Assembly (NCBI RefSeq): GCF_020921035.1
Contig: NC_063150.1
Location: 35,015,826-35,079,825, forward strand
Direction: 5' to 3'
Length of the DNA: 64,000 nucleotides
DNA from: Rhodamnia argentea
Taxonomy: Eukaryota > Streptophyta > Magnoliopsida > Myrtales > Myrtaceae
The notes beneath the pieces are model-generated. The model ran no database searches. It was not told the origin of the DNA and was given only the letters and a program-made list of their open reading frames with translations. The position numbers were made by a program, and so were the translations under genes. This document shows positions 31,261 through 64,000 of the stretch, piece after piece (the first letter of the stretch is position 1; every line of letters starts with the position of its first letter).

Positions 31261-31308
31261 AAGATCTTAATGACATTTTTTTTTTTGGTCCAAGATCTTA
31301 ATGACATT
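31261..31308 (-). mobile_element. Ultra-short poly(A) retroposon A
   Basis: A 17 bp target-site duplication, AAGATCTTAATGACATT (31261-31277 and 31292-31308), flanks a 14 nt insert at 31278-31291. On the plus strand the insert is nine T followed by GGTCC; in the sense direction it is GGACC plus A9. Nothing else is inserted. Confidence 0.8.
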
Positions 31309-31838
31309 TGAAAAATAAAAGAATTAAAAAAAGTCGTATACATTCTTTGTATGCTTCCCTTTTAAGTTAAAAGTACATGGCGTCATCGTCAGTATTCTCA
31401 CGTTTAAGAATGTTCTCACAGCCTCAGTTCCTTCAGACCACGCAAACAATAAGATACCTCAAACGGAACCCTATTATAGAACAGAGGATTCAGACAGGTC
31501 ATAAGAGCCTATGAAGAGTCAAGCTGAAAATGGAGGAAGTGGAATTCTCATGGACGAATTTTGACTCAATAGATCATTAAAAATTCCCTGAAAGATAACA
31601 AAGGAGCTCTCAAACTCAGGGGCATGAACAGAAACCGATGCCGCGGCTCGACCGTTCGTTTTAGCAACTCTAAGTAGCAACAGCGGAAATTGATAAAATT
31701 CGATACAGAAGCATTACATCCTAATTATGTCTTCCCTCATGCGCTAAAGAAGACTATGGAAAGTCAGTGAACATTTCACTTAGGAATGAGTGTCTAGGAC
31801 TAGGAGGAGCGCTCAGATTCCCTCTTCTCACGAATTCC

Positions 31839-34078
31839 TCACTTCTTCCTCTTCTTTGGAGGCTGGAGGGCCTCCTCATCTTCATCCTCGTCGTCATCGT
31901 CTTCTTCTTCGTTTTCTTCCTCAACAACTTCTTCCTCTTCTTCTTCCTCTCGGCCATCCTCATCTTCATCATCATCGTCGTCATCGTCGTCCTCATCGTC
32001 ATCTCCTTCTGGGTTTTCACCATCTTCATCATCCTCCTCCTCTTCCCCATTCTCTTCACCCCCACCGGTCCCGGTCCCAGTCCCGCTTCCCGCTTCCTTC
32101 TTCGAGTTACCATTATTGCTGTTAGGGTTTTTCTTGTACTCCTCTCCACCTTCAGATGATACTTCCTCTTCACCTTCCCCAAACCCGCCATCCGCATCAT
32201 CATCGTCGCCGCCACCATTGTCATCATCATCTTCCCCAGCATCGATTGGCTTGGCTTGGGTGTGGCTTTGGTCATAACTAGCTCCGTACTCCTGTTTTTC
32301 AATCTGTAGCAACCAAAGACATGACAAAAAGAGGAGTTATATCCAAAAGCAGTCAGATCACTAATCAGCTAAGAAAATGCCACCACGTTTTACCAACTCT
32401 TTTGTTTTTAACTTCTAGTAGGAAAGCAAAGAATACCATTTAAGCTGCAGCGAACACCAAGCCTAGCTATGCTATGAGTGAAATTGTCACTATGGTGTAT
32501 TAACCAACCAATTCGAACGGCGAAACCTAGACAACATCTACATAACATCAGCATACACGGGGAGCAAAGTCCATCTAGAACATGTCAGATGACTGTAGTT
32601 GTCGGCATGAGGGCGAACATTTGCACAAGTGATTCTACAGTACAACCATGTAACACGGTCTAACCAAAAAGGAACCACCTCAGAACCAAGGCCCCCTGAG
32701 GTGTGGGAATATGCCTCAACCACAAAGGCAGTGCTTCCAGCCACAAAGTGACCAAAGAATCATCTTCCAAAGAGCACCAAACTCAAAAAGTGCAGGAATT
32801 TTCCCCCTTTCTACTTATCTGACAAGAAACGATCTCAAATGTCTCCCAGGAAAAGAATATAAAAAAGTTGCTTTTTTCCCTCATTTCTAAAGCTATACCC
32901 GAGTCGTACAGAGGAACTACCTAATTAATGGATGTTATAGACTAAAACGAATGAACGATCTTTCAACATGTGTGGCCAATATCACCTTAAAGGTTTCCAG
33001 ATAGAGAGAGAGAGAGAGAGAGAGATCCCACAAATGAAAGATGGAAGAAGCATATGTCCTGAGGAATATTCCGAGACAACCTTGTTCAGCACCATATACA
33101 TAATTAATAAAGACGATGCAAACCAAAGCAAGTAGACCCATTATTCTAGACTTGAGCTCTGACTTTCTCAACGACCCAAAAGACAAAAAGCTAATTTTAT
33201 TTTAGAAAACCAAAAATATCCCCCCTTTTCCTCAAAATTTACTTAAAAAGCCCCCACCAATGGGTATCTTCATGGTGAAACGACAATATGGGCCCCACCC
33301 ACATACAACCCTTTCCGGAACCCAAAGCCTAATCCAAAACTCGAATTTATATTCCCGTCAAAAGTCCGCCCCTCAGACAAAACCTCGCTCACGTTAGCCG
33401 CCCTTTACTATTAGGGTAACGGGGATCTCTCTGCTCGGATAAAAATAGCAATAATAAAAAGTGAAACAAAAAAATTGGGTTAAAAAAAAAAAGTGAAAGC
33501 AAAGAATATTGCGAGATCCTCCTCCTCCTCTTATGTTTTGAGTTTTTACCCTCTTTTTTTTTTTTTTCTCTATCCATACAAGACCCTCTCCATCTCTCGA
33601 CGGAAAGGGGTGAACACGTAAAAACACACCAAAAACACTGATTTTTTTTTTTTGGTCAGGAAAACAAATTGCTTGAAATTTAATAGCGCACAAAAAAAAA
33701 AACCCCCAATAAAAAAAACATTAGAAAAAGGAGGAACGAACCGGCGCAGGTTAGCAGCGCCACAACAAAGGAAAAAGGCCACACTTAATTATCCACGAAC
33801 ATAAGCTGCGATAAAAAAGATAAAGGAGAAAAAAAAATTGGAGGAAAAAAAAAACTCTTTGCCAAAAACTAGGAGACAAGAAAAAGGTACAAAAAAAATA
33901 TAAAATAAAATCACCGTAGTGAAGGGGAAAAAATTTGGCGTACCTGATGAGCCATAAGCTCGGCCTTGACCAGGTTGACCACGACGAGGCTAACGAGCGC
34001 CTCGCCGGCGCACGTTAGCACGAGGCGGGCGAGGGTCGCCCCGAGTCCAAGAGCAGAAGCCCCAATCTCGGTTTCCAT
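31839..34078 (-). CDS. Protein with hydrophobic N-terminus and Asp/Glu-rich C-terminus, function unknown
   Basis: Two coding exons, 33944-34078 and 31839-32303, join in phase (HQ|IEKQEYG) to give 199 residues. Exon 1 reads METEIGASALGLGATLARLV then LTCAGEALVSLVVVNLVKAE, a mostly hydrophobic, helix-prone stretch. Exon 2 begins IEKQEYGASYDQSHTQAKPI and then becomes dominated by D, E and G, with long acidic runs between residues about 75 and 190. It ends in PPKKRKK, a classical basic nuclear-localisation type sequence. The ATG at 34078 is the first in-frame ATG after the acceptor region upstream; GTG codons 5' of it are ignored. Similar plant proteins are usually annotated only by their acidic composition. 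Histone or chromatin binding is possible for such a tail but is inference. A 5' UTR intron is likely upstream (34130-34590). Confidence 0.78.
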
Positions 34079-36175
34079 TCGTGCGCCTTCTTTTTCTTCG
34101 ACAACTATTGGAACACCCACCACCTAGGACCGAACAAATCGACAACAACCGTTAGATCTGCTCCTCTGAAACTCTGTCAGCCTTCAGATTCCCAATTAAC
34201 AGACCCCAAAAAAAAAAAAACAAAGAGATTTTTCTAATCTGCGCCATATAAAGTCGAAAATAGAGAGAAAATCAGAAATATGTGGAGAACAACAGAACGT
34301 CGCGATAATAACGCGACAAAGAGCGCCTTTAAGCTGAAGCGAAAGCGACGGTCGAGCTCGCCGGAGACCAGCTCCGCCGTCGAATCCGCCGTAAAGTCGG
34401 CAAGCGGGAGCCAGGACGACGGGAGCGATCCTCGATTCCACAAACTCGAAGCACCGAGAGGGGGGGGGTGAAAGCATCCTCGAGATCCAAACGACGCGTA
34501 AGCGAGATACAGAGAAGGAGAACCAAGCTCGAAGACGACAGCGAGTTAAAAAAACAAGAGAGGGAATCGGAGAGGGGAAAGCGTACCGCGTAGCGAGATC
34601 CGAGGCGTGGAGAGACCAGATCTGGAGGCTTCCGGCCCTAGAGCGCGGCGGAGACGGCGGAACGAGCTGCGTGCATTGTCGACCGTTAGATGGTGATCGT
34701 AGCGGTAGAGGAGACCGCAAGATATAGAAATATCGAAGCGGAGAGAGAGAGAGAGAGGAGAGAGAGAGAGTTACTGGTGACTGGCTGGTGACTGACTGCC
34801 CGTAGTTGCAGTGGGGGGAGGGTTCGGGCAGTCCGGGCAGCTCCCTCGCAGAGTGAAAAAGATCTTCTCTTTGGGCTGCCCGCCGAGGGATGGAGGGTGG
34901 ACAAGTGTGGGTGCTTCCATTAATAAAAAATGTTTTCTCTTTTTCTTTTTTCCCCCCTTCCCTTTCAATTAATTATTTAATTATTAATATTTTAAGGATT
35001 TGTTTTGAATATGATTCTCTCTCTCTCTCTCTTATTCTCTCTATATTCTCCCAGACAGGCAATGGTTTCCTATTGGGTGTGGCCATTTAACCATGGTTAG
35101 TTCAGTTAATTAACCAGAGTCAAACTCACGGTCAACTGTAGTTTTATTCCAGTTTCTCCAAGTCAAGGCAAATGTTTAAAGGTAGTTGAAACCAAACCTA
35201 CCAAAAGGACAACCACCCGTTTTAAATTTAAAAAATTCGGCCCATCAGGCCATTTAGTGGGCCGGGCCTTTTGGGTCGAATATGGGCCTTTTTTGGACCG
35301 GAGTGGGATTACCAAAAAAATTTGTGAGCCCAATGTCTAGGAAGTGTAAAAACGATCCAATGGACCTTCCACGCTCTGCACTAGAAACTGAAAACAAAAA
35401 CTAATCTATATCCAATTGCCGGAACTAAGTAATTCCTCGCGACTCTCGTAAAAGTCATGAACTTGATGGTCCAATTTTGATTGGGTTGGCATAGTGTTAT
35501 CTAGGGGTGTTAAAATTGAACCGTAAACCCGAATCGAAATACAAATCGACCCCGAATTTTTCTTATGGTCAAAAGCTAACTCGAGGGTACATAATAGCTG
35601 CACCAACCAACAAAAAAAAAAAAAAAAAAACTCACACCCCTAAACTGGTCTTTCTTAGATACTGCTTTGTCCCGATGAAGACCTCGGAGTTGAACCGACA
35701 CGCCATTCTACACCTCGAATTCATCCTTAAACATATGCAATAGTTCCCCGAGGTCCGTTATGACAAAAGGGTTGTTGCACTCTATTGAAATATAGTTTTG
35801 TATTCAAAGTGTCTCGAAACATCCAATTGTAGACGACCAAAAATAAGGTATAATGGTATATCGCCATAAAGTCAATGCCGATAAAACTTCCTTTTTCCAT
35901 GTCAAATAGCTTTGTGGCCACAAAAGAAACCTCTTGGTCTTGCAATAGCTAAAGTCGAATCGAAATCCTCGATGAAAATTATTTTTCCTATGGTTTGAAA
36001 ATAAAATGAGATGCATGTACTTGGGAAAATTATTTTGATAATCCGTCAATATATGCCTTCATGGTTATATCTCGCAAAACTACTTGAATTGGACTTGATT
36101 TCTCTTCCGAGTACTTTGATATCTCATTTGAGCTGCTACAATCTTGTTTGACATGGTCCTAACTCTAGTTCGATT

Positions 36176-36226
36176 GTAATGTAGCCTATTTTTTTTTTTT
36201 TTTTGGTCGGGGTAATGTAGCCTATT
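36176..36226 (-). mobile_element. Ultra-short poly(A) retroposon B
   Basis: A perfect 15 bp duplication, GTAATGTAGCCTATT (36176-36190 and 36212-36226), flanks a 21 nt insert at 36191-36211. The insert is fourteen T plus GGTCGGG on the plus strand; in the sense direction it is CCCGACC plus A14. Confidence 0.85.
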
Positions 36227-36566
36227 CATGGACCCCAAACATTAGAAATAAAGGGACCACTAGGGTTTTGATTAGAGAAAATACACGAGTCATAACGATG
36301 AAAAAGGCGACGTCTGCAAACACGGCATCCGACCAAACAACCGACGAATACATGCGAACCGAGGAACGTAAAGAAAGAAAGATCAGAAAAATCAAATCTA
36401 TTGCTAACGAAATAGAGATGTACGAAGGTTTTTAACAACATCCGTGCTTTTTCGTGCAAGATAAAAAAGTCAAATGGGAGATAATCAAAAGAATTAGAAA
36501 CATGAAGGATGTGAATGCGAATGCGAATGTCCATCCATTTGGGTGAAATGTCTATAGAAGGATGTG

Positions 36567-36623
36567 AAGGACCACACTTAATTTTTTTTTTTTTTTTTGG
36601 TCAGAAAAGGACCACACTTAATT
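36567..36623 (-). mobile_element. Ultra-short poly(A) retroposon C
   Basis: A perfect 17 bp duplication, AAGGACCACACTTAATT (36567-36583 and 36607-36623), flanks a 23 nt insert at 36584-36606. The insert is fifteen T plus GGTCAGAA on the plus strand; in the sense direction it is TTCTGACC plus A15. It lies only 340 bp from copy B. Confidence 0.85.
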
Positions 36624-36662
36624 TAATGGCGTAAATTAATTGAAAAACTTATATCGATTAAA

Positions 36663-36988
36663 GGGTTAATATCACAAAAAATCACAAATTAGTATACATG
36701 TGACATATTTACCCTTCGTTGGTTTTCGTTAAATTTTACCGTCAAATTGCTGAGTTAAATCACACGTGGCAACTAAAGGGTGTACCGGTTTAGAATTTTT
36801 ACCCTCCGTTTATCATAGTTGTATCCATTTGGGTCTTTTTTATGGTGTTAATCCAATTTAATAGAAAGTAATGGAGGGAAAATCTATCACACGTGTACCA
36901 GTTTGGAGTTTTTGGGAGAGACAAAAAATTAGTTTGGGTTAAATTTGTTACAAGTGTATCATCTTATGATTTTTCGTGATAGTAACCC
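36663..36988. mobile_element. MITE-like element, GGTTAATATCACGAAAAA family, copy 2
   Basis: The 326 bp element has a left end GGGTTAATATCACAAAAAAT and a right end, reverse-complemented, GGGTTACTATCACGAAAAAT. The interior shares 'CACACGTGTACCAGTTTGGA' and 'TTGTTACAAGTGTATCAT' words with the longer copy at 10784-11313. No certain flanking duplication is seen. Confidence 0.65.
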
Positions 36989-37429
36989 TAGGTTAAATCA
37001 TTACTTTTTTGTAAGGTGTTTATTTTTGTTTTACAAGCAAGGGCATTATAGTCAAGAGACATAATTAATGCTCGAAAATGGATTTTTTACACATACATAA
37101 GTCCAGATGATGCGAAAAGCATATCTCAATGTCAATCACTTCTCAAATGAGAATTAAGAAGTCATTTTGTAGGAGGAGTGAATTGGGCATGTAATTCCCA
37201 ACTTCTCCTCCTAAAAATCAGAATGTTTCCCTCTCAATTATGGCCCAACAAGTTATGACGATGGGCCAGAACGGCCCGCCATATTGCTGTGTATGCTTAT
37301 TGTGGGCTTTCCTCAGCTAATTAGTATTGGCACTCTCGAAAGTGTGTTGGATTGGTTTTGCCAACTTTTTATTCTGTTGGTTAAAAACAAGCTCGCTCTA
37401 CATAAAACTAGGCATCAATCCCGACCCGA

Positions 37430-37640
37430 GTCGAGAATTCTCTTCATGAAAAAGGGTGAGGATGGACGACTGGTTAGGAGTTGCAACGAAAATCCGACCG
37501 AACGGGAACCGAAACAACCGATTCTGGATTGTTTCCACAAGAATCGGTCCGATTCTCGATTCTTAAAATTTGGAACCGATGATTATGAGTTCGGATTCGG
37601 GTTCCAGGTGTGAACCCACCCAGACCATCCGGACTGGATC
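37430..37640. repeat. AACCGG-type repeat relic
   Basis: This stretch contains GGGAACCGAAACAACCGATT, GAATCGGTCCGATTCTCGAT and GGTTCCAGGTGTGAACCCA. It is related in wording to 18530-18700 and to the repeat in DDB1 intron 4. An ORF spanning 37284-37613 runs across it and is not considered a gene. Confidence 0.4.
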
Positions 37641-38309
37641 ATAATTATTATTATTATTTGACAGTCACCGTTACTTCCACAAGAAATAATATAAAAAAGG
37701 CAACTGTGGCCCACAGACCACCATGGTTGTTATGCTAGAAGTTCAACTGGCCGCTCACATTCCACCATTGCGGACGGTGACCGTCAGACAAGAATGGTCC
37801 TTGTTATTATTACAACACATTTCTCAAAACCCTAATGTCCCATTCTCTCTCGGTTCTCGCTCTGTCGTTTGATATTCTGTTCTGTTACACACCTTCTTCT
37901 CCCACACGACGAACATTCCAATGGAGATTGGGAAATACTAGAGAGCGTTGTCGCAGCGTCGGCGAAGAAGCAAGGGGTGAGAGTTAGGGAGGAGGCCTGT
38001 TTCTATTTTGCGTGTGCTGACTAACGGGTAAATGAACGAGATCCTGCATAGGTAAAAAAGAAAGAAAGAAAGAAAGATATCCCCGTGTCGGCTGGACTCA
38101 CCTGGGAACCGGACTGGGCATAAATTGAAAGGTTTAGAATTAAATTAGTACAAATGCAACAGATTGAGTGCATAATTACTCCGCTCGCATGTAACCGGTT
38201 CAAACAAGCAATACAATATGTGAATGAAATGATATCGACGAGGTAATCTACAACAATGGAAAAACAAAACCAGGTAGAATAATATGAATATCGTAGAGGA
38301 GAAATAGAA

Positions 38310-38440
38310 GAAGAAGAGTCGGGAGTCGAACCCTTGACCGTGGTCTAATACCATGTTAGATAAAAATTTTTCCCGATAACTTGATCGAGAACGGATCGAC
38401 AACATATACGCGGATTAGTATATACTCTCGATTTATTTCG
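38310..38440 (-). mobile_element. LTR retrotransposon relic with tRNA-Met-type primer binding site
   Basis: On the minus strand the text reads ...ATCTAACA, TGGTATTAGACC, then ACGGTCAAGGGTTCGACTCC. A CA-ended LTR followed at once by TGGTAT(C/T)AGA is the usual primer binding site of plant Copia elements (initiator tRNA-Met). The LTR would lie above 38355 but its far end is not recognisable, and no gag-pol coding sequence follows. Confidence 0.4.
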
Positions 38441-39339
38441 AGCGAACAAGGTACACACTTGAATACCGATTTCTAAGTTTCACTTATGTGATTTTGATTT
38501 TCTAACTGCTTCTCTCTTTTATTTTGTTAATTCTATCTCTAACTCTCCTCTCTCTGACTTTTGTTCTGCCTCTTTGCAAAGTGCGGAAGTTAAACCCTAC
38601 ACCTATGACACTAACGTCCCCACCCCTCAATCTCTTTATCAGTAGGGCCGCATGCCTCTTGGTTTTTTTTTTTTTTGGTGCAAACTACAACCTCTCCTCT
38701 TATCCTCCTCCTTATGCTAGCCCATAATGCTACGTCCTTCGCGTTATTCCCCTTGGAAAATTGGCCTAAAAAGCTATAGAACGAACTCAAGTCGGCTCTG
38801 CTGTTTATCGAGAGACATGGAATCAACTTTTGTTGTTGTTTTTCTTCTTCTTCTTCTTCTTCTTTAACCTTAAGACTCCGAAAGAATCATATGCTTCCAC
38901 CTTAGAGGATGAGGAAAAAGCTTGCGGTTCCTTCGCCAATTTCTAAAATTCAAAGTTCCTCGAACCATCAAAAGAACATAGATATTTACATAATTAAATC
39001 TTTTGCCAAGCTTAAAAGAATATTGTTACCCACCCACCTTTTGTGCCCACCTATGATCAATCGAATTCTCAAGCTTTCACTCCAAGAAACTCTTCAAATT
39101 AGGTTTTCTTAAAGCTTAGCGAAAGCTAACTATTTAGAAGGAATAAAGTATCTTAAAGCGGATTCCCATAAATACTACCATTAAGTTATTGCGATATAAA
39201 CCATGTTTCACTTCGTACGCTGGCCACTCAATGTTTTGAAATAAACGGTCGCTCGCTTGACTTCAAACGTGGTCCAGCTACCATCGGACCAGCACGTAGT
39301 ATGAACTAGAGGTGGCAAAACGGGGCTAGAATCTATATC

Positions 39340-39960
39340 TTAACTCATTATTTATTAATGTGAGTCATAAATAAGTTACCTTAAGTTTCAAAAACAAACT
39401 TAAATGAGTTATAAATTGGTCAGTTAACAAGTTAATATGTCTTAAATGGATTTCAAATGGGTCATAAATAAGTTAGTTATCTAATAAGTGTAAGTGAGTC
39501 ATATAAAAGTCATTTTTAAATTTATTTTACATTATTTTATTTATTTTTTCTTTTTTTTCCTTTTTTTTTTGGCTAAATCCGGCAAGGGTTGCCGGCAACC
39601 AGTGGTTTTTGGCCGGTCGCCGGTTGTTGGTCACCGGTCGGCCGGCAAACCTCGCCGGTCGTAGAAGAAAAAAGAGAAAAAAAAAAGGAAAGAAAGAAAA
39701 AGGAAAAAATATTTAAAAAATCATAATTTTCTTTACAAAATTATGAAAATTTTCTACAGTGTTTTATCCAATATAATTTTTTTTAAATTATAAGAAACTA
39801 TTTTTCCGAACTAAATTTAATATCGAAGTGTTTAAGTAATATTTGTCGTGTCGGGTATGAGTATGAGTATGGGTATGAGTAGGAATAACTAGATTTGTAT
39901 ATCATGAAAATGGGTCAACCCATTTTCATGATATGGGTTGACCCATTTGACAGCTTTAGT
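39340..39960. repeat. Repeat with GC-rich core and a perfect palindrome
   Basis: AT-rich tandem 'GAGTCATAAATAAGTTA'-like words (39350-39510) are followed by a GC-rich core (39580-39660, GCCGGTCGCCGGTTGTTGG). A palindrome follows at 39901-39932: ATCATGAAAATGGGT, a two-base CA spacer, then the exact reverse complement. A further ATGGGTTGACCCATTT follows directly. The structure suggests a non-autonomous DNA transposon relic. Confidence 0.5.
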
Positions 39961-41554
39961 ATCAATACAAATTTGTTTTTGTTGTCTAGTTTTAATTACT
40001 AGAGTCATCGTGACACTATATACATCGGAATAAATCGAGTGATCTGTTTCAATCCGTTGGATAAAAAATCGGGAACATGGAACTTTCTTTTAAGTCAAAA
40101 GAAATATGGAGCTTTAACTAACTCGTTATTACCCAAAAAAAAAAAGTAAAAGAAAAGATTGGATATAATTTGTACTTTCTGAATGACGTGCTCTAATGAT
40201 ATTCTCTATTTTTGCAGGCCTTTTTGCACAAAAAAAATGGTCCATTATCTTCCTCAAAACGGGCTTTAACATCCATAATCCTAAAGCGTGTAAGAAAAAG
40301 AAAAATCTGACATAAAGTTAATGATAAAGATACCAAAAAAGCTGCTGCTTAATGTCCTTGACTAAGAAAGCTTAATCCGGATTAAGTCGATCTGCTTAAA
40401 GGCAGGTAACACCTAGAAAGATTGTTCATTAGACCCAAAAAAGCTTGAAAGTGCCAGGTCTTTACACCTAATCAGATAAGTGGGGGATACGTGGAAAATG
40501 GAAATTGAACTTATGCACTCATAGCGACTTTAGTCCTTTAATTTTCGTACCTTTGCGAGACGCCCCTAAATCTGTCCGATCCTCCAACCAACGGCAACTA
40601 GGGTCGGACGGAGAGGATAGTCGTAGGGGCGGGTTTTGATCGACGGTTGTGGTGCTATGCGAAAGTGGGTTCGGGGAAAATACCGACTTTCGCTTTTCAA
40701 AAGCGGTACTTAAATCATCTCTCGAAAAACTTAAATTCATTACCGCTCATTTCAATAGCGAATCAATACATCATTACATGCGTCTCTTGAATCTCATGAC
40801 ATATTCGCATTCCTCACTTATGCCGCTTGAATCTTCGTCAACATCGCATGCATCATCACTAAATCAAAAAGATGACAACATTGTCTCATCCTTTTTTGGT
40901 ACTTCTTATGTTGCTTCCAAATTCAATTCGACAAAGCCCAAATAGAGAGAGAGAGAGAGAGCATCCGAATATGGTTCCTCTCCATAACAAAATAAAAGGA
41001 GGAAAAAAAAAATATTCCCATAATTGTGCATGAATCTCAAATTTCATTTCCTTTTCGTTTTTGTTGGAAATTTTGTTTATTGTCGTGACGCCACGCGAGC
41101 CATTCTTAGTGGCAAGCAACTTTAGATTGCACTCGAGAATAACACCACGAATAGCCAAAAGCTAAGTGTTTGCGTGACGTCTCTTTTTATCAATTCCAGC
41201 ATATATTTTCTTAAAATATATTACAAATAATTATAAGAAATACACACACAAATATGAAAAGGAAAATCACTAAGCAATCGGCCAACCGTCCAAAGGCCAC
41301 TACCCCCCCATGAATAATTACTACTTTACACACATCATTGGCACCATCACTCGTAGTTTAGATGCACATTGATTTAGCAATTAATTAGCCATCTCTCGCT
41401 AGCTTATACTATCTTTGCTTTGCTTAGGCGTTTAGTCCATGTAGATAATCCATTAGAATTGCGCTTATTAATCTTGTGAAGGGTCATAATCTCATGTGGC
41501 CTTTCCAACTATGCCTCCATACATTCGTCCATATAATTCGGGTATTCAAATGGA

Positions 41555-42420
41555 CGCGATGTTAACGAAAGCAAAGGGCCAACTATTTGCCGAGTTGCTC
41601 GATATAAGTAAAGCGGATTTAATTAACTTTACGTGCATGCGATCTTAGGTTTATCGATGATTTGTTAGATTATATTATCAAGAATTAGTATTGGAGTACA
41701 ATATGTGTCAGTCGAGTCCAAGAACGAGAGAAAAGAATGATAACGAAAGCAAAGAACTAACTATTTGCCAAGTCGCTTGATTAACTTTACTAGCATGCGA
41801 TCTTAGGTGGATCGCATATATTAACTTATAATATCAAGAATTAATTTTCTAATGCAACGTTCATCACTCAAGTCTAGGAACAATATGTTAGGATTAGGCG
41901 CACAATCACAACAAAGTGAACAGTAAATGCGAGAAAGAGAAATTGAGAGACAATGTTTATTTTGGTTCACCCTGAAACAAGAGTTATGTCCAGCAGAGTA
42001 TTTCACTATAATTTGTAGCCTCGTCTCTCTGTAAAACTCTCGATTACAAGAAAAATGGATTATATATATATAACAATAGTTATTCATCTACACAAGCCCA
42101 AACTACCAATAAAATATAGGCTCAAACTATAAAAATCCCCTAACGTTTAGAGGGGATTGCCCTCTTGAGACCCCCATTGCATTTAGAGGCGGTCTTTCCA
42201 GAACCCCGCACCCTCACGGAGGAGCGGGACCTGTAGAGTATGAACCACGCTTCAACAGGAGAGCTAATGAAAGTACGTGATGATAACGAAAGCAAAGAAT
42301 TAACTATTTGCGTAGTTGCTTGATTAACTTTACAACCCTTAGGGGGATCGCATATATTAGATTATACTACCAACAATTAATTTTCTAATACAACGCTCAT
42401 CACTCAATCCTAAGTGCAAG
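41555..42420 (+). repeat. Three degenerate copies of a ~150 bp unit, the third displaced by an insertion
   Basis: The copies start at about 41560, 41738 and 42280 with GATAACGAAAGCAAAGAA-type text. They continue through CTAACTATTTGCC, TTGATTAACTTTAC, the GGATCGCATATATTA region and CAAGAATTAATTTTCTAA. The first two are adjacent; the third follows an unrelated 390 bp block (41883-42275). That block begins near TGTTAGGATTAGGCGCACAA and contains TGGTTCACCCTGAAACAAGA, which is LTR-like in style. No coding content was seen. Confidence 0.6.
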
Positions 42421-44571: not shown

Positions 44572-44626
44572 AAGTACCATGAGATGGATTTTTTTTTCCT
44601 TTTGGACAAAGTACCATGAGATAGAT
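44572..44626 (-). mobile_element. Ultra-short poly(A) retroposon D
   Basis: An 18 bp duplication, AAGTACCATGAGATGGAT (44572-44589) and AAGTACCATGAGATAGAT (44609-44626), with one mismatch, flanks a 19 nt insert at 44590-44608. The insert is T8-CC-T4-GGACA on the plus strand; in the sense direction it is TGTCC-A4-GG-A8. The single mismatch and the broken tail suggest this is an older copy. Confidence 0.7.
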
Positions 44627-46059: not shown

Positions 46060-47190
46060 TTTCGAACTTTTAATTTGTTCAATATAATCTCTGGACTTTA
46101 ACTCAATTTGCAGTAATCCAATTTGAGGGCTCGAGCATAAGAATCAATTCGCGTCGTCACGGCGCGCTTGTTTGTTTAACTTACCGAAAGGAAAATGACT
46201 CGAATGGTCCTTGAATTTTGATTTTAATATGCGATGTGATCTCCTTTTAATTTGTTCAATATGATTCTTGAACTTCGACTCAACGTGCAATGTCATTTTT
46301 GAATTTTTAATTTATTCGATTTGATCACTAAATTTTTAGTAAATATTGAAACTAATCTCCAAATTTAAAAAAATTAATAATTTAGAGACCACGTTTCGCA
46401 GCTGGACCAAAGTTCGGGCTTCTCAAGTGATGGTGACTCTATGTTTTCCTGAAAGATCATTGAGCATAATTGTTCTTTTTTTCTGGAATATTAGATCAAA
46501 TTGACCGAGACCTCGAGCAAAAGAACGGTGGTGGGTCCCCCCCACCTCCCAAGCTCCTAATAACACCGACGCGCGACGCTAAGACGCGTGTCGCCACTCG
46601 CTCGCCTCGAGCTGATAACCATCAGAGCGGCGGGAACTTTTCGCCGCCGTTTGCGGCGGAAAGCAGAATCGCGAGCCACCTCACGCGCCTTCACAGCGCG
46701 CGTGCCTCACCCCCTCCGCCCCCACCTTTGGCGGCTTCTTTCTGCCAGATTTCGGCGACAACCGTTGGATGAGCTGTTGGTTTTCCTCCCTTCCACCGCA
46801 ATGGAAGAGACAATAATTTTTCACGTGGCCGGAGGATTTTGGCGCTATGCACTTTCCTAGGAAAAAAAAAATTCCTAAATTAAACATTATCAAAGTATGT
46901 TATTGACTCGATGCAAGTTTCAAGTCGTGCGATTCAAATTGAATTGGGTAAACGACACAAGATGATTTCCATGTAATTCTTGAATTTTTAATTTATCTAA
47001 TATGATCCCTGAATTTTGATTCAATATATAATTTTATCCATAAAATTTTAATTTATTAGACGCGATCTCTAAATTTTGATTCAATATTTAATGTGATTTC
47101 ATACTTTTAAATATTTTCAAATCATTTGGTGATTATATTGAGTATTTATAAATAATTAAAAGATCAAGTTGAATAAATTAAATAATTAAA
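46060..47190. repeat. AT-rich degenerate tandem repeats around a GC-rich block
   Basis: Units of roughly 40-50 bp of the type TTTTAATTTGTTCAATATGATC-CTTGAATTTTGACTCAA recur at 46060-46380 and again at 46970-47170. They flank a GC-rich block at 46540-46860 that carries overlapping ORFs on both strands without family resemblance. It looks like one decayed element with repeat-rich ends. Confidence 0.4.
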
Positions 47191-55400: not shown

Positions 55401-56774
55401 ATTCACAAAATACACAACCTGTATCATAATAGCATTCCAGCTGAAAGAATCAATATAATCTGGGATTATTAAAATCAAGATCTAAGAACAGGATTTGCAT
55501 ATTACTCAAAGAAACGAACCTTCAGGTTTCCCGGCATTTTCGATGCTAATGCCTCAGCAAAATCGGCAATTGCATGGTGCAAATATATGGTTGTGGCATG
55601 CTGCAGAAGCTTGCTTTGCTCCACAATAGCATTCAGAACTTCAGGATGGCAATGTCCACAAGATACGGTAACAATCCCAGCAAAAGCATCAAGATATCGC
55701 TTGCCATTCTCATCAAACAAATATTGCATTTTCCCTTCGACGATATTAAGCTGTACAAACAACAATAGATATTTCTTTACCAAAAAAAAAACAACAATAG
55801 ATATTTGAAAGAAATTGCAAACACCTGGAGCATAAACAGCACATCGGAGAATCGCATCCAGTTACGCACCCGCCACAAAGAGCAACTGACCAGAGGGGTT
55901 CCAAAAGTCTCGTTTTTACATAACAAGGATGCACATACATATGACAAAACACATAACCACCAATTGGGCGATTTTCCAGCCACACTAACTGATCAGAGAC
56001 GCAGAATTAGCAGTTGATTAAGTATCTCGGGCACAACCCACGTCGATCACGTCACAAATATCAAACTCAACTCGAAGAATTTCTTCATGATGCTTTTCAA
56101 CAACTTCCTGGCCTTGGAAAAATCTCTCTGACATCATATTTCAAGACGATGCCAAGAATCTTTTTGGGCACTCATCCTTTTAGGGAAAGAAAATGAACGA
56201 AACAAAATCATCTTTTTTCCCCTACTTTAGTACCCATCAAACAGATATCTTCCTGTACGGAAGAGGAGAAGATGATCAGCTCTGCCAATTAAAGCGCAGA
56301 TGATTCACTCACAAGTTTTTTTTTTTTTTTTTTGGTCACTTGCAAAGTTGAAAAAACTGCAAAAAATGAGCCACTTCCAAGCAGAAAACAGGAAAAGCAA
56401 TCTAAATCCAAACAAAATCAAGAAGAAAACGCCACATGTATCAGAGGCAAAAGCAAAAAGATTACAGACTTCGCTCGCATGCACAAAGGCACATGCTCAT
56501 CAACATAACAGCTTACGGGCTTTTGGTAATAGTAGAAGAGAGAAGGGCCCAAGAACTTCTTGCGCTTCTCAAGAACCTCATCGGCCGAAGGCCCTTTGTA
56601 CGGCTTCGGCACATAATCGAACCTCGGCATCTGAGGCGGAGAATCAGCAGACGGCGACGGCGACGGCGACGACGAAGGGACCGTCGAGAACGAACCGCAG
56701 AGAGCGACGCCATTTCGAGGGACAAGACGACGGTGCTGGTCACGGGCTCTCAGAATGCTGTTCCGCCACGCCAT
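52499..56774 (-). CDS. Alanine:glyoxylate aminotransferase 2 homologue, mitochondrial
   Basis: This is a class III PLP aminotransferase, expected to transaminate glyoxylate with alanine (or act on related amino donors) in mitochondria. Nine exons: 56517-56774, 55520-55750, 55248-55418, 54772-54915, 54496-54675, 53935-54160, 52858-52971, 52663-52749 and 52499-52542. They join in phase to 484 residues. The N-terminus [20 protein letters not shown] is Arg-rich and Ser-rich, typical of a mitochondrial presequence. Catalytic features are the cofactor loop SGSEAN (from 170), HGG (His199), the [13 protein letters not shown] motif with Asp298, and the Schiff-base Lys328 in TMAKGIGNG, at the exon 5/6 border. 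[14 protein letters not shown] follows. The last exon encodes only [14 protein letters not shown]. Substrate choice among plant AGT2-like paralogues (AGT2, AGT3, PYD4) cannot be fixed from sequence alone. Intron 1 carries an ultra-short retroposon close to its acceptor. Confidence 0.95.
55759..55806 (+). mobile_element. Ultra-short poly(A) retroposon F, beside a splice acceptor
   Basis: A perfect 16 bp duplication, ACAACAATAGATATTT (55759-55774 and 55791-55806), flanks a 16 nt insert, CTTTACCAAAAAAAAA, at 55775-55790. It is in the opposite orientation to the other copies. The left duplication begins about 8 nt from the intron 1 acceptor of the aminotransferase gene (CAG at 55753-55751). Confidence 0.8.
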
Positions 56775-59700
56775 CTCGTCGCTCTTCGCTGATCAAGAAC
56801 TTCCAAAGAAGAGACACAGTACGAGAGACGGTGGGTAAAAGTTCCGGCCTTTAGTGCGAATGACAGTACGAGCGCTTAAAGCGGGTGAGTCAGCAGACTG
56901 GCTTTGGGGGTCTTGAAAATTTTGGGATGATTAGTCTTAATCTTGATGGATTACTATAATGTCTGCATCATTCGTGTCTGATTTTTTGTCGCCTGTCGAG
57001 AAGGAATCTCAGCTGCTTCATGACGTGGAATTTCCCATTTTTTCTAAGTCTATCTCTTTTGGATTATGGCAGGGAATTGAGTGCGGACCGATCGACAAGT
57101 TGGCTGCAAGCAAAGATTCGAGGGCCTAGCTGCCTAATTGAGTGATCTCTCTATAACGAAAGAACATAAACTTTCGAGAAAAATTAACGAAAAAGTCATA
57201 AAGCTATTAGAGGACGGCCAATTTAACTCTAAATATTTCAGTTGTGTTAATTTAGTCGTATATATTTTGACAATTAATTAATTTAATTATAAACCTTTCA
57301 ATTGTATCAATTTAGTCTTAAATATTTTAAGGTTTGTCGATATTAACCCATTCGGTTAATTTTGACAGAAAATTGTTAACATGACCGTCTAGTCTATGTC
57401 GATCGTTCTACATAGCATGGCCTGCGCCGACGTGAACAATTCTTACAAGTTTTTGTTCTTTCAATATTTTATTCTCTCCTTCTTCTTTTTTTCCTTTTCT
57501 CTCCACCAGTCATTGTTGGGCCTCATCGATGGCTCGCAGCGAAGGTCGCCAGCCTTAGGCAAGGGTGGCCTTCACCCTTGCCGAATTGATTAAGGCCGGT
57601 AACCTTCGCCGGCCATCGACGAGGCCTAGAGATGGTCGGAAGAGGGAAAAGGGAAAAAGAAGAAAAAAGAAAAGAAACGGAAAGGAAAGGAAAAACAATA
57701 AATTCATTTTAAAAAGTTGTATCAATTAACCACATCGACACCAGTCATGTCACATGGATGGTTGGTACCGACTAGACCGTCACGTTAGCAATTTTCGATC
57801 AAAATTGGCTGGAAAGACTAAATTGACAAATCGTAAAAAAATTCAGAACTAAATTGGTGCAATTAAAAAAAATTGGATTATATTGGCAAGTTGTCAATAA
57901 GTTCATGACTAAATTGACACGATCTTCAACCTTTTTTTTTTTTTTTTGACACGGTCGAAAGGTTTAGATCGGTATTGGCCACATACAATAGGTTTAAAAA
58001 ATTTGGACAATTTTCCCTAAATTTCTGATCAAATATATAAAACTACAAACTTTATAATGTGGAGAGTCAAGGGATCACAACTTGCTGATTACAGTAAGTT
58101 CAATTCTCATTAAGGCGCAGAAGATATTCTTGAAATATTTTCTCTATTTTGCAAATCAAACAAAAAGAAAATTGTGGATCCGGTTTGGTTTCGATAAATT
58201 ACATTGGAAATTTGATTAGAAAAACAAACGGACCGAACCAAAATTTATTTATGCTTCAAATTTTCACTATTTTTTCGATTATTATATCCTAGTGATAATT
58301 AATTAATTACACAAATGATCTCTTATTTCATTAATTATCTAATGCTTAGCTAAATATATTATAGACCAAAAATTTAGTTTGCTTCTTAGGTTTGTTTGGA
58401 CACCAAATCCAAAAACTATTGGCAATTTATCTGGAGCTCATTTCCACCACCTCTTGTCGCAATTCGATATTTGAAACATGACCGAGCGGCAGCTTATACT
58501 TCCTTTGGCTCGTTTCACTCTTGGATTGTCTAAGCTCGGCCTTTCTCAAGAATCGCTCACTCGATTTGTAGCGAGAGAAAGTCTACAAAAGTGTTTAGAG
58601 AGAAACTCCGAGAGAGAACATAATTGCTCAACTATAAAATGATATAATCGAGGGAGAGGGCTCCCTCTATATATACAAGAGTCCATCTAATTACAATCAT
58701 AATAGTGGCGATTCACTCCCGCTTAATGATCTAACGAAAGACAGACTCAATCCTCATCTCGATCAATCCAATGATAGAGATACATCTCGATGGACACCAA
58801 TCCCTATTCCATAATTCAATGTTGGAAGTTGAGTTCCACCTATCAATCCAAACAGCTCGTCTCTCCGAATTGATGACTTGACAAGCCGTCTGTGACACGC
58901 CAATGTTGTTGGTGCCACCGGTTGTCCCGGGTCGCCACTCGCCACCACAGGCATGTGTGGCTGGTCCCTTGCCAATGGTTGTCGATGACCCCTTAACACT
59001 TGAAAAATATTATGCATAAGAATTGCTTACATTATCTGTACACACCTTTCTTTGGGCATACATTCTCTCCATACACCAACAGTCGTAAACATGTCATGAA
59101 AATGTATTTTATAAACAAGTTTTCTTGTGTGAACATTTTTCATCCACGATCTCTCCCCCTCGTTAATCAACGAATAAGGGGAGACTGAGAATTAAAATTG
59201 GATAGGTTGCTGAGATTTACATTAGAAACCCACATGAACTCAGCAGTTTAACTTTGATTTACAATCTGCATCAAGCTGTTTTGAAAACTCCCAGGAACAA
59301 GACCATTATAAAATTTGGCACCATAAAATGAGCAGGAAAGTTGCGTAGCCATATATAGAATCTGCGCTTATGTTCAGCCGCCTTATTCTTATTCTCTTTT
59401 CCTTTTAATTTCCTTCTTCTCACAACTCAAAGGGCACTGAAATGAATCTCGTCATAATCAGAAGAGCTGAAAAACTTGCTCCCAGAGCATTTGAAGCGCC
59501 AGAGCTATGTTAGCGAAAGGCGACAGATACAAGAACTTCTATGAAACCAATTAATGTCGAGTGCAGTTCACTTGCACATGGAGATCCGTTCCCCAACAAT
59601 GTGTTGGAAAAACCAGCAATGCATAATGTCATTTACACCATCTCAGTATATAATTCTGACTCCGCACGAGAAAACAGACACCTGCCAAAATTGTTGTTTG

Positions 59701-59911
59701 TCCGAAAATTTCCTCCATGCGGTTTCAGCATCAGCATAAATCTGACCCCCTCCTCTGTTCCCGCCACCTTATAGGGCAACACATGGTAGGAGAAGGGTTT
59801 TACAGCATGATAGAATTACCCATCAGCCATTGATCTGCTAACATCTTGCAAGATCATTCAGACATTTGACACAAGTCCTTTTACATCAGAACTCTTATCG
59901 ACAATCTCCTT
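56775..59911. other. Spacer between the PPR gene and the aminotransferase
   Basis: The promoter and leader of the aminotransferase should lie just above 56774, and the 3' UTR of the PPR gene below 59911. Between them are a complete MITE (57178-58017) and AT-rich sequence. Small ORFs at 58763-59017 and 59541-59774 are not supported by any family resemblance. Confidence 0.55.
57178..58017. mobile_element. MITE, GGGAAAA-TIR family with GC-rich core, copy M4
   Basis: The left end GAAAAATTAACGAAAAAGTC continues ATAAAGCTATT. The right end, reverse-complemented, reads GGGAAAATTGTCCAAATTTT and continues TAAACCTATTG. The left arm has ACATAGCATGGCCTGCGCCG and the right arm CACATGGATGGTTGGTACCG. The core (57510-57640) is GC-rich with AAGGTCGCCAGCCTTAGGC and GGCCGGTAACCTTCGCCGGC. 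A poly(T) tract at 57931-57948 interrupts the right arm. It is about 840 bp, close to M1 at 805 bp. Confidence 0.68.
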
Positions 59912-62275
59912 CTACCAATAGTCCCGACAAGAACACGTACCATCCCGGAAATGGTGGAAACGGGTAGAGTCTCTCACAACGATTTCTCTGCCAGCTAGCT
60001 TAGCTATATACTTAATGGCTGAGTGGCAATCATTACAGATCCTTAGGTTCTTCATGATCCTTAATGTAGTGTTCTCTGGAGTGTTGAGTAACCCAAAGGC
60101 AATTGCAAGTTTCTCGCTGTGATGTCTGAGAATCTGCTCCTTCACCTCTTCCTCAAGGTCATGCATTACTGACTCAGTGTCTGGAACAAAACCCATCTTC
60201 TTTATCTCCTTCCAGATCTTATCAATGGTTTTGTAGATTGCATCTTTCTGTGGGTGAAGCCCATCTTCGACACCAAATACATGAACCTCGTTCCTTATCT
60301 GAACCCAACTAGTTCCTTGTTCTTTTTTAACTCCTCTGTCCTTCATGGACTTCCTAACTTTAGCAGCATCCTCCCATTTTCCACAGACCATATACAAGTT
60401 TGCCAAGGTTGAGTATGCACCACTGTTATCTGGATCAACAATAAGCAGCTTTTCTGCGGCAAACTTTGCAAGTTCCACATTTTTATACAGTCTACATGAA
60501 GCCAGAAGTGAACCCCAGGCACTAACATCTGGTTCAATAGGCATGTTCTCAATAAACCTCTGGGCCTCATGTAGCAATCCAGCACGCGCATATAGGTCAA
60601 TCATGCAGGCACAATGACTTAGGGTGGGTTCAATTTTGTCCATATGTCGCATCCTGTCATAATATCTGCGTCCCTGTTCAACCAATCCAATATGCGTACA
60701 GGCAGATAAAACACCAACATAAGTTATGTGGTCCGGTTTTATCCCTAATGTGAGCATCTTCTCAAACAGTTTTAGGGCATCTTCTCCAAGACCATGTTGA
60801 GCCAAAGCAATAACCATGGAAGTCCAGGAGACTGTGTCCCTGTTGTCATGTGCCAACCCGAATACTTTTCTTGCGTCATTGATGTTTCCAGATTTTGCGT
60901 ACATGTTTATCAGTGCGTTGCTCACAGATACAGAAGATGATTCATACGTTCTCATGGCATTAGCATGGATCTGTTTTCCATAATTGAAAGAAGCCAAACT
61001 TGCACTTACAGTCAACATGACTGCTAAAGTATAGCTGTTAGGTCTGGGGCCTTCTCTAAGCATTCGTTTGAAAATCTCTATTGCGTCGTCGTTCAAACCA
61101 TTCTGCACATAACCTACAATCATAGCTGTCCATGTAACCACATCCCTCTCCATCTGTAAGTCAAATATTTGTCTGGCAGGATTTATATCTCCAAGCTTCA
61201 CATACCCATCCAACAATGCTGTAAAAGCGATTATATCCATATTTGAAGTCCCGCATTTTTCAACAATTTGTCTTGCTGTTTCAACCTCACCAGACTTTGC
61301 ATACATCGAGATCAAAGCATTTTCAACTGCGTTTGACATATCAAACACGCTTTTCACCATGTAAGCATGAATTTCTTTCCCAAGCCTTATATTTTCAAGA
61401 TTAGCACAAGCAGACAAAACACTTGCCAAAGTAAATTTATCAGGCTTCAGAGAACGATCTTTAAGCATCCTAGAGAAAAAATTCAGTGCTTCAGTATCAT
61501 GCCCATGCTGATTGAAACCTGCAATCATCGAATTCCAAGAGACAATATCTCTTTCGTCCATCATATCAAACTGGGCAACAGCAAGGTCAACATGCCCAGA
61601 AAGCATATGCATCGAAAGCATCACATTCCAACTTGATGTGTTCTTCAACTTTATTCTATCAAATACCATCTTGGCTGTCATATGATCACCTGACTTTGCA
61701 TACATGTTAAGGAGAGAATTCGCTACAGAAACAGAGCTACTCAACCCAAGTTTAACTACTGAAGAATGAATCTTTCTACCTACAATCAAAGCTTTAACAG
61801 CTGCGCAAGATGCAAGGACATTAGTCAAAGTATACTGGGTAGGCAAAACTCTCTCTGACAACATATCTACAAATAATTGAATTGCATCTACAAAGCGACG
61901 AGTCCGATTATATCCCACAATCATTGCCGTCCAAGAAACGGAGTCACGTTCAGGAATTTCCCCGAATAAGCAATGCGCTGTGTCTACAAAACCCTGCTTC
62001 GCATACATGGACAGGATGGTGTTCCAGGAAGATGTGTTCTTTTCAGGCATTTCATCGAACACGCGGCGCGCATCGTCCACAAACTCAGATTTAGCGTAGA
62101 AATTCATGAGATTATTCATCAGGAACAACCCAAAATGTAGACCCGATTTGATTATCTGAGCATGGACTGATCTTCCGCCGAACGGGTCCTTGTTTTTTAG
62201 GCTGGTCTGAAGCAGATAAGCATAAGAATCCGAAGGCGAAGGAAAGGGAGGTGGGTTCGAGATTTCCATCATCAA
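59912..62275 (-). CDS. Pentatricopeptide repeat protein, PLS class with DYW domain (At2g22070-like)
   Basis: PLS-DYW proteins bind organelle transcripts through their repeats and edit C to U with the DYW deaminase domain. The frame is a single uninterrupted exon of 787 residues. It starts MMMEISNPPPFPSPSDSYAY and then runs through repeated PPR units, e.g. DARRVFDEMPEKNTSSWNTI, RDSVSWTAMIVGYNRTRRFV and PDKFTLASVLSACANLENIR, to about residue 590. E/E+ motifs follow (VSAWGSLLASCRLYKNVELA; KKEQGTSWVQIRNEVHVFGV). The DYW domain occupies roughly the last 135 residues, with HSEKLAIAFG (HxE zinc/deaminase motif), CNDCHSAIK (CxxCH) and the terminal FHHFRDGTCSCRDYW. Length and text closely follow Arabidopsis At2g22070. 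Three consecutive Met codons open the frame; I take the first. Plastid or mitochondrial import is expected, but the presequence is short and unclear. The editing target is unknown. Confidence 0.97.
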   Translation of the reverse strand: MMMEISNPPPFPSPSDSYAYLLQTSLKNKDPFGGRSVHAQIIKSGLHFGLFLMNNLMNFYAKSEFVDDARRVFDEMPEKNTSSWNTILSMYAKQGFVDTAHCLFGEIPERDSVSWTAMIVGYNRTRRFVDAIQLFVDMLSERVLPTQYTLTNVLASCAAVKALIVGRKIHSSVVKLGLSSSVSVANSLLNMYAKSGDHMTAKMVFDRIKLKNTSSWNVMLSMHMLSGHVDLAVAQFDMMDERDIVSWNSMIAGFNQHGHDTEALNFFSRMLKDRSLKPDKFTLASVLSACANLENIRLGKEIHAYMVKSVFDMSNAVENALISMYAKSGEVETARQIVEKCGTSNMDIIAFTALLDGYVKLGDINPARQIFDLQMERDVVTWTAMIVGYVQNGLNDDAIEIFKRMLREGPRPNSYTLAVMLTVSASLASFNYGKQIHANAMRTYESSSVSVSNALINMYAKSGNINDARKVFGLAHDNRDTVSWTSMVIALAQHGLGEDALKLFEKMLTLGIKPDHITYVGVLSACTHIGLVEQGRRYYDRMRHMDKIEPTLSHCACMIDLYARAGLLHEAQRFIENMPIEPDVSAWGSLLASCRLYKNVELAKFAAEKLLIVDPDNSGAYSTLANLYMVCGKWEDAAKVRKSMKDRGVKKEQGTSWVQIRNEVHVFGVEDGLHPQKDAIYKTIDKIWKEIKKMGFVPDTESVMHDLEEEVKEQILRHHSEKLAIAFGLLNTPENTTLRIMKNLRICNDCHSAIKYIAKLAGREIVVRDSTRFHHFRDGTCSCRDYW

Positions 62276-64000
62276 AGAATGCTTTTTGACGACAAACCAT
62301 CGACAAATAAAGTGTCACAACATTCACGTTGCGTTCTGAATGGTCGAATGAAACTGTGTCTGAGGAAACAGTTCGAGCTCCGTTTCCAACCGACAGAAGT
62401 TGGCGCAAATAAGTCTACCAAGGAACATAAATTTTGGCGTGAAAAAGATAAGCATAATTTAAGAAGTGAACAAAAAATAATTTAAAACATGTATTTTTTT
62501 CACGAAAAGTAAAAAATTTTAAAAATTTATTAAATAATCGTTAGTTTTGCTTACAAAAATGATTTAAATGAACATAAATGTTGGCGTAAAAAAACATAAT
62601 TTAAGTAGTGAACAAAAATTTAATTTGAAACTTGCATTTGTCTTGCAAAAAATAAATGATTTAAAATTTTTTCAAAATAATTGCTTACAAAAATAAATAA
62701 ATGAAATATGTATTCATCGTATGCAAAATTGTGTAAATGTTGTCCATAATAAAAATAATTTTTATTAACTAATTATTTCATATTATACAATCTATTGTTG
62801 TGAGGAAAATAGTTTTCAAATCTTTTGTTTTATGCAAATCAAATATATCTCTTTGTTTTCTTTAATGATACGATGAATGAAAAGCTTCATTAATGATACC
62901 ATGCTTATATCTCTTCTTTAATTATCGCTAGCGTAATGCAATTTTCTTATTTAACTTTTCTTTTTTCATTTGGTTTGAGCTCAGAATGTCGCATGTATTA
63001 ATACTTCATGGGACCAAACTTTTTCATCCAAGGATTGGAAATGGACTACTGGGGTTTAATAATAAACGTGCTTTATCAATCTGGAGATTTAAAATTAGTG
63101 AAAGTTCAAAATTCAGATGTGGTTTAGATTTTTTTTTTTTTTTTGGGGTCGACTATGTGGTTTAGATTAAGCATGTATCGTATTGAAGTATACGCCTAGA
63201 AGAAAGCCACCCCTCCATCTAAATCACAAGACGAAATGTTTAAGTTTGTAGATGGAGAAGGAATATCTAAATTACACAAACAAGAGAACTAATTGTGAAT
63301 TTGACAAACAATCCGAAATAAACTGTAATCGAATCCAACTCTTATATCTTGTTCGCAAGTTCAATCCAAAGGCAAGCTTACAGATGAAGGGCACGTGTAT
63401 AAAAAGAATATACACCCCCGTAAAACAAGTGACATAGGTTATCTTAACAGTGACGAGAACTATATAGTTTCTCGTGCATGTCGAATTTCGTTGACACCCG
63501 GAAAATAATATGTAAACCTGGTTGGAAAATTATGTGCCAAATTTTATATGGACATCTTAATAGGCTCCATGTGTCTGAATACCATTTCAATTTACCAAAA
63601 CTACATAAAATTCACTTCCCAAAATATTGTTCTCACGCTATTTAGTGGCAAACCGTGTGAGACGTCCCGTTCATTGTTATTAGAAGTCCAGCAAAAATGT
63701 TAATAATTATTATTTTAGTGGTTTACAATAACTTCACTCACCAGTCAACTTCTTCTAATTAATGGCCATAGTAGAGTACACGGCGGCCCTTAAATCTCAA
63801 ATAATGCATGAAAATAAAGCAAACCGTTCATTTCATAGAGATTAGTCCCGCTCAACCATCATTATTAGGACATAATGATCAACTAGGCAACCACAAAGAA
63901 TTTAAGGACGTGAAGGGCAACAACTCATCATATAGAAAATGCAGCTCAACTTCAACTTCCCCATACAAGAATGGCATCTTAACGCCTGCTTCATGGTCAT
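62276..64000. other. AT-rich upstream region of the PPR gene
   Basis: The first few hundred bases should contain the PPR promoter and leader. At 62440-62780 a loosely repeated AT-rich unit occurs (ACATAAATGTTGGCGTAAAA, GAACAAAAATTTAATTTGAA, TTGCTTACAAAAAT), suggesting two or three degenerate tandem copies of about 130 bp. The rest has only one identifiable element (63117-63168) and no credible gene. Confidence 0.5.
63117..63168 (-). mobile_element. Ultra-short poly(A) retroposon E
   Basis: A perfect 14 bp duplication, ATGTGGTTTAGATT (63117-63130 and 63155-63168), flanks a 24 nt insert at 63131-63154. The insert is fourteen T plus GGGGTCGACT on the plus strand; in the sense direction it is AGTCGACCCC plus A14. 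Confidence 0.85.

Follow-up and report, generated by a model that had tools for sequence, protein, structure and literature searches.

Short poly(A)-tailed insertions with LINE-like ends of nearly constant length in Rhodamnia argentea: probable tail-only products of target-primed reverse transcription

The DNA analysed here is a stretch of 64,000 nt from Rhodamnia argentea (assembly GCF_020921035.1, contig NC_063150.1, positions 35,015,826 to 35,079,825; hereafter the window), in which six short inserts, each made of a few letters followed by a poly(A) tail, lie between the two copies of a direct repeat. Sequence comparison shows that the letters before the tail (the body) resemble the 3′ ends of long interspersed nuclear elements (LINEs), that the inserts arrived by insertion with duplication of the target, that empty counterparts exist for some loci, and that in two LINE groups the body has a nearly fixed length. 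Taken together, the tail, the duplication, a target of a pyrimidine followed by AA, and a terminus like that of a LINE are indicative of target-primed reverse transcription by L1-clade LINEs, the process that an earlier sequence-only reading of the window had proposed. We consider it very probable that the inserts are tail-only products of such LINEs resident in this genome, with copying ending about 7 nt beyond the tail, and we lean weakly towards a trimmed template as the cause.

Six structures in the window and their background

All six structures, each a duplication bracketing mostly a homopolymer tail, were located within 2 nt of where the sequence-only reading had placed them, and all were also recovered by a blind scan of the window for close direct repeats. 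The 14–18 bp duplications that it described are exact over 18, 15, 18, 14, 14, and 18 bp at sites A to F, respectively, whilst the tail at site D is an interrupted one. The number of A's in each tail varies with how many are assigned to the duplication.

Site A (31261..31309, minus strand) has 18-bp exact target-site duplications (TSDs) at 31261–31278 and 31292–31309 around an insert at 31279–31291, which in sense orientation reads GGACC plus an A tail; when two microhomology letters are counted in, the final 7 nt before the tail become TTGGACC, identical to the 3′ end of a LINE found elsewhere in this genome (L031; the LINE ends that were fetched are described below). Site B (36176..36226, minus strand) carries CCCGACC plus a tail at 36191–36211, between 15-bp exact TSDs at 36176–36190 and 36212–36226, and has 6 nt in common with LINE ends of the TCCGACC type. 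At site C (36567..36624, minus strand), the insert at 36585–36606 reads TTCTGACC plus a tail, the TSDs (36567–36584 and 36607–36624) being exact over 18 bp; just 5 nt are in common with any fetched LINE end, and the TCTGACC type of end seen here was found again at loci L051 and L069. Site F (55757..55806, plus strand) has CTTTACC plus a tail at 55775–55788, flanked by 18-bp exact TSDs at 55757–55774 and 55789–55806, and CTTTACC is the 3′ end of LINEs L036 and L040. Site E (63117..63168, minus strand) has 14-bp exact TSDs (63117–63130 and 63155–63168) around an insert at 63131–63154 that reads AGTCGACCCC plus a tail in sense orientation. Its end is a CGACCC(C) variant, present also at L014 and L027, for which no fetched LINE end was matched (2 nt of agreement). 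Finally, site D (44572..44626, minus strand) has TSDs that agree over 18 bp apart from one mismatch (exactly over 14 bp) at 44572–44589 and 44609–44626 and an insert at 44590–44608 with the sense sequence TGTCC plus the interrupted A tail. For this TGTCC end, no parent was found among the fetched LINE ends.

Chance does not produce such structures at an appreciable rate. The window contains 20 exact direct repeats of at least 13 bp that lie no more than 60 nt apart; an A7 or T7 run is enclosed only at the six sites, and the remaining repeats are simple, tandem, or tail-less. Comparison with shuffled sequence had been suggested by the sequence-only reading, and was run on the window rather than on the genome: in 200 dinucleotide shuffles, repeats of the same size and spacing holding A7 or T7 numbered 0.005 per shuffle on average, with a maximum of 1. 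Among the 38 A-runs of at least 10 in the window, 13 have CC directly before them (compared to 7.8% of A-runs in general), seven have GACC with or without an extra C, and eight have GG.

The assembly comprises 346.66 Mb in 74 contigs, with the window on contig C1; the eleven contigs that were seen measure 23.9–37.3 Mb, and a set of 11 chromosomes would be in keeping with Myrtaceae. In an unselected sample of 200 kb, made up of 20 evenly placed pieces, CC precedes 11 of the 109 A-runs of at least 10, close to the 8% found for short runs, and GACC precedes three, so that the enrichment is weaker than in the window. A scan of the sample for tails with duplications gave 34 hits. Five of these belong to the class (one each at L010, L021, and L027 and two at L014), with the bodies TTTCACC, CCGACCCCT, TACTACTTACCTTACC, TTTCGAGCC, and TTCGACCC; the other 29 are mostly A/T-rich or tandem-repeat DNA with different ends. 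With five sites in 200 kb, as against six in 64 kb, the window is richer than average. The forecast that such inserts would be very numerous genome-wide was nevertheless borne out by thousands of candidate sites: GACC-A12 occurs 3,014 times (1,524 and 1,490 on the two strands) versus 207 times (104 and 103) for the reversed pattern, and TTTACC-A12 occurs 311 times versus 24.

Three of the seven GACC-preceded runs in the window lack a convincing duplication. These are an A12 tail after CCTGACC (33642..33653, minus strand), with no detectable TSD and possibly an old or non-canonical member; an A13 tail after AGACCCC (34208..34220, plus strand), likewise with no detectable TSD; and an A18 tail after GTGACC (56316..56333, minus strand), at which no significant TSD was found. 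Direct repeats of other kinds occur as well. At 10836–11313 there is a diverged tandem repeat, spaced at ~60 bp and containing A/T-runs, with related copies at L011, L017, and L024. Two direct repeats, one of 22 bp with a 48-nt spacer (30758–30849) and one of 16 bp with a 44-nt spacer (47012–47087), have no poly(A) tail and fall outside the class. Searches of the window for Rfam families and, with ARAGORN, for tRNA genes gave no match, nor was a reverse-transcriptase YxDD motif seen in a LINE-like frame there.

Parent LINEs and the length of the body

Resident LINEs with open reading frames were called by their zf-RVT domain (PF13966). A profile search of the genome gave at least 150 matches among 907 candidates (150 candidates were scored, and all 150 matched), many of them in frames above 1,000 aa. 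We fetched the 3′ flanks of 24 LINEs (16 plus 8), chosen mainly by their long open frames, and could assign an A tail at 19 of them, the exceptions being L029, L034, L035, L038, and L043. Because its tail precedes the first in-frame stop, L032 is a less secure case of a true end. At the tail, the 19 termini read GACC in ten cases, TTACC in four, and GAC in two (16/19 together); the three that deviate are L039 (GATC), L127 (TGAT), and L044 (CCTT).

Several insert heptamers are identical to these ends: TTGGACC to L031, TTCGACC to L129, TATGACC to L131, TCCGACC to L030, L033, L125, and L132, and CTTTACC to L036 and L040. Since GACC or TTTACC had served to select the sites to be compared, only agreement that goes past those letters is a fair test. 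Among GACC-A12 sites with a duplication, 21 of 26 agree with a fetched LINE end over at least 7 nt, compared to 187 of 1,241 (15%) for GACCs in 264 kb that are not followed by AAA. For TTTACC sites with a duplication, the agreement is 7/9 versus 29/137 (21%) in the control. The apparent parents are not the single SINE (short interspersed nuclear element) or LINE that had been envisaged, but several resident L1-clade LINE lineages with a common terminal (G/T)ACC and unrelated 3′ untranslated regions (UTRs).

The terminal (G/T)ACC itself stands at the A tail in 14 of the 19 LINE ends (two further ends have GAC), despite the unrelated 3′ UTRs, and may be a template-recognition signal. Two observations on the LINEs may be added. 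Eight LINE 3′ ends on four contigs are 99–100% identical over 132–133 nt (L131:1–133), and the L131 type is probably a recently active L1 subfamily. In addition, a 0.83 Mb stretch of contig C6 (61751–891602) has 25 of the at least 150 zf-RVT matches; every one of them is on the minus strand, suggesting an array of equally oriented LINEs close to the end of the contig.

To describe the inserts outside the window, we used two sets of places. The GACC-A12 set consists of 60 of 100 listed places (the first 40 plus 20 of the rest), all from the first 8.9 Mb of C1, and the TTTACC-A12 set consists of 20, every fifth of 100 listed places on contigs C1–C4. A duplication was called at an ungapped score of at least 11, searched within 420 nt upstream, and was found at 29/60 and 11/20 sites, respectively. 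The body measured 5–10 nt at all 29 GACC sites and at nine of the 11 TTTACC sites, i.e. at 38 of 40 in two LINE groups, or at 35 of 37 when three tandem-repeat-like sites are left aside. With swapped downstream flanks, duplications appeared in only 1/300 (GACC) and 1/100 (TTTACC) trials, and none had a short body. When gaps were allowed, 40 of the 60 GACC sites had a duplication adjoining the tail, compared to 0.3 expected. It had been claimed that only the extreme 3′ end was copied, up to a recurrent 5′ junction, and these lengths agree with that.

A table of 45 sites was compiled from the selected sites, five window sites (all but D), and the five sample sites; it leaves out L063, L064, and L105, as well as the two bodies over 20 nt (L090 and L093), so that 38/40 stays the headline count. 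In this table, the body is 5–10 nt in 44 rows, 7–8 nt in 28, and 16 nt in one. Body and tail lengths are uncorrelated (rho 0.16, p 0.28, most tails being at least 12 by selection), so whatever sets the length seems to be counted from the junction of tail and body, and not from the primer. Base composition at the 60 GACC sites shows an excess of T at positions −6, −7, and −8 and is at background by −10. At the target, the first base of the TSD is A in 27 of 33 sites and the second in 25, and the preceding base is a pyrimidine in 27; three of these 33 sites are tandem-repeat-like. No T-run emerged as a consensus upstream of the nick at these sites.

Long LINE copies also finish in GACC-A or TTTACC-A, and the patterns pick both alike. 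However, a match to one of the 19 LINE ends that extends up to the tail was found at none of the 60 GACC sites and at three of the 20 TTTACC sites (L087, L098, and L100). The last 133 nt of the L131 subfamily have ten matches in the genome (the eight near-identical ends among them), as against 176 places with TATGACC-A10 (control, 3); when two further parental letters are required, 24 of the 176 remain, five of them at known long copies. Similarly, the last 174 nt of L129 have 15 matches, one of which is a 54-nt copy, as against 1,101 places with TTCGACC-A10 (control, 8), and 16 of these remain, six at known long copies, when four further letters are required. The ratio for L129 is not exact, because TTCGACC may also derive from LINEs that were not fetched. 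In both subfamilies counted, the short inserts far outnumber the longer copies.

Insertion, the stop, and competing explanations

The sequence-only reading had named empty sites as a check on insertion. We searched the joined flanks of 13 sites against the genome; each retrieved the filled site from which it came, and four loci (L048, L050, L061, and L078), none of them a window site, had paralogues across the junction. The joined flanks of window sites A, B, C, E, and F (not D) found no paralogue in the genome, but only themselves. Eight paralogous stretches were fetched; seven span the junction and one (L140) ends at it and is uninformative. All seven lack the tail and the heptamer in the alignments. 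The case is clear for L061, where C2:32648092 and C1:20908913 have one target copy that runs directly into the downstream flank. The paralogues of L048, L050, and L078 are more diverged near the junction, yet they too have no second target copy. Within the scope covered, shuffles of the window and paralogues at four of 13 loci, both checks that could have refuted the sequence-only reading speak for it.

The proposed route to such a product is as follows. The endonuclease would nick a pyrimidine/AA site, and the nicked strand would prime on the poly(A) tail of a LINE RNA. Reverse transcription would then copy the tail and ~7 nt (mostly 7–8, range 5–10) of the conserved LINE 3′ terminus, after which the second strand would be made, leaving a target duplication of ~12–21 bp. 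As to why copying stops, the LINE RNA may decay from the 5′ direction until only the part held by the reverse transcriptase and the tail-binding proteins is left; this remnant, ~7 nt plus the tail, could still serve as a template, and the enzyme would run off its end. We infer these enzymatic steps and the cause of the stop from the structure of the products. Since lineages whose 3′ UTRs are unrelated show the stop at the same distance of ~7 nt from the tail, some physical ruler is required. The sequence-only reading had left the choice between an early stop and a minimal template; a stop at a near-constant distance, mostly 7–8 nt, is what we find, and we lean weakly towards the end of a trimmed, minimal template rather than a roadblock. 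In any case, the near-fixed stopping point hints at an undescribed fixed stop in LINE copying.

The strongest competitor shares this origin and differs only in the nature of the stop. The template would be intact, and the enzyme would be arrested by a roadblock, or would fail to exit initiation, once it had copied ~7 nt beyond the tail, leaving an abortive cDNA to be joined to the nicked top strand. It accounts for the fixed distance equally well, and we regard it as a serious contender to which we would give somewhat less than an even chance, an estimate that covers this version of the stop and not the common origin. Predicted folds for the terminal 90 nt of 11 LINE ends, compared by eye, share no hairpin ending at −7. 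Likewise, an RNA hairpin as the stop was dropped as a candidate, the single-sequence folds of these ends having none in common. Furthermore, junction microhomology is at the chance level (52% versus 49% by chance, n = 25), as it is in full-length human L1 and not in truncated human L1, which show more according to the excerpted text of PMC2912911. Together with that comparison, the chance-level microhomology makes the junctions look, on weak evidence, more like run-off at a template end.

Ordinary random 5′ truncation, which is general in L1, would make the inserts the short end of a broad distribution, and longer forms do occur here: a 54-nt copy, a 16-nt body at L014, and two apparent bodies (21 and 55 nt). 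Nevertheless, bodies of 5–10 nt at 38/40 duplication sites, in searches that reached 420 nt upstream, are not a broad distribution, and only 16 of the 1,101 TTCGACC-A10 sites agree with the sole known parent for another 4 nt. We therefore think this explanation improbable. A separate minimal element that borrows the L1 enzymes in trans, be it a SINE or a short RNA gene (~7 nt with poly(A)), would suit the thousands of similar copies, and is less probable still. The heptamer is variable and its commonest forms are the ends of several distinct resident LINEs; moreover, composition has returned to background by −10, and shared sequence at the tail is confined to six repeat sites and three long LINE copies. 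Slippage, tandem duplication, or an assembly artefact at poly(A) tracts can be dismissed almost entirely, since, even in a genome rich in tandem repeats with similar-looking direct repeats, the empty paralogous sites lack tail and heptamer, the (G/T)ACC end recurs, and the shuffle and reversed-pattern controls are low.

Other candidates were considered and rejected. The ACC-A ends raised the idea of tRNA CCA ends as parents, but LINE ends fit the bodies better, and ARAGORN reported 0 tRNA in the window. A single SINE as the parent fails in that most sites have no common upstream sequence, and as a class the inserts are not SINEs, in that a body of 80–500 nt with an RNA polymerase III promoter was not found where duplications bracket 5–10 nt at 38/40 sites. 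Nor are they processed pseudogenes: an mRNA body was not found, and at the same 38/40 sites the duplications hold a few letters and a tail.

Against an origin as tail-only LINE products with a trimmed template, several points have to be set. The microhomology figure comes from 25 junctions, and 12 of the 37 junctions with a known parent carry 1–3 nt that are absent from every fetched end. For unselected sites, agreement over 6 nt with a fetched LINE end is limited to 1/5 in the sample and 3/6 in the window (site D being scored as a miss), and the ends CGACCC(C), CGAGCC, TTTCACC, and TGTCC match no fetched parent. The length is not strictly fixed either: longer apparent bodies were called at two of the 40 duplication sites, 21 nt at L093 and 55 nt at L090, in addition to the 16-nt body and the 54-nt LINE copy already mentioned. 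As for the GACC set, its 60 sites represent only the first 8.9 Mb of contig C1; 20 of them have no duplication even with gapped calling, six lie in other repeats that are shared up to the tail, and three of the 29 with a duplication (L063, L064, and L105) resemble tandem or shared repeats. At L063, L064, L065, and L105, GAGACC stands before the A-run, and L063 and L064, like L065 and L105, are alike up to the tail; these four appear to be a separate repeat family that is not bracketed by a simple target duplication.

Relation to known systems and implications

The inserts resemble 5′-truncated L1-clade LINEs of plants and mammals in their poly(A) tail, their duplication of ~12–21 bp, their pyrimidine/AA target, and the copying of an L1 3′ end. 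They differ in body length, which is near-fixed at ~7 nt here and broad there. In human cells, poly(A)-only or solo-tail L1 events occur, with little or nothing beyond the tail. In contrast, the inserts in R. argentea keep a short LINE-like terminus and are present in large numbers in a reference genome.

The human L1 survey in PMC2912911, as described in its excerpted text, covered insertions of 50–10,000 bp only, and could not have seen such events because of the 50 bp floor. Plant L1 with stringent or relaxed 3′-end recognition are reviewed in PMC3747384 (Ohshima). In the portion of that review used here, stringent-recognition plant L1 offer a likeness, in that conservation of the 3′ end among members suggests that more than poly(A) is recognized in the template, and also a difference: the conserved part in R. 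argentea is the terminal (G/T)ACC, and a common stem-loop was not seen by eye in 11 ends. L1-like retrocopies in dicots have been shown, as far as the excerpt of PMC4838847 goes. A search of the open-access literature found no account of fixed-length or tail-only plant LINE insertions.

We tentatively suggest that the ~7-nt body is the genomic footprint of a LINE ribonucleoprotein and that most LINE-driven integrations in this genome are decay remnants, cut back by nucleases to the terminus that the enzyme protects. If this footprint reading is true, insert length might, in an equally guarded view, read out how far the plant L1 enzyme reaches upstream of the poly(A) junction. If most plant L1 integrations are tail-only events of 20–30 bp, L1 activity would be greatly undercounted, because surveys with length floors (50 bp in the excerpted PMC2912911) miss them. 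Were the body constant at 7 nt, thousands of germline events would measure a step of target-primed reverse transcription, be it the early stop, the template end, or the second-strand switch, that is hard to observe biochemically. The insertions would also serve as dense phylogenetic markers and supply poly(A)/poly(T) tracts.

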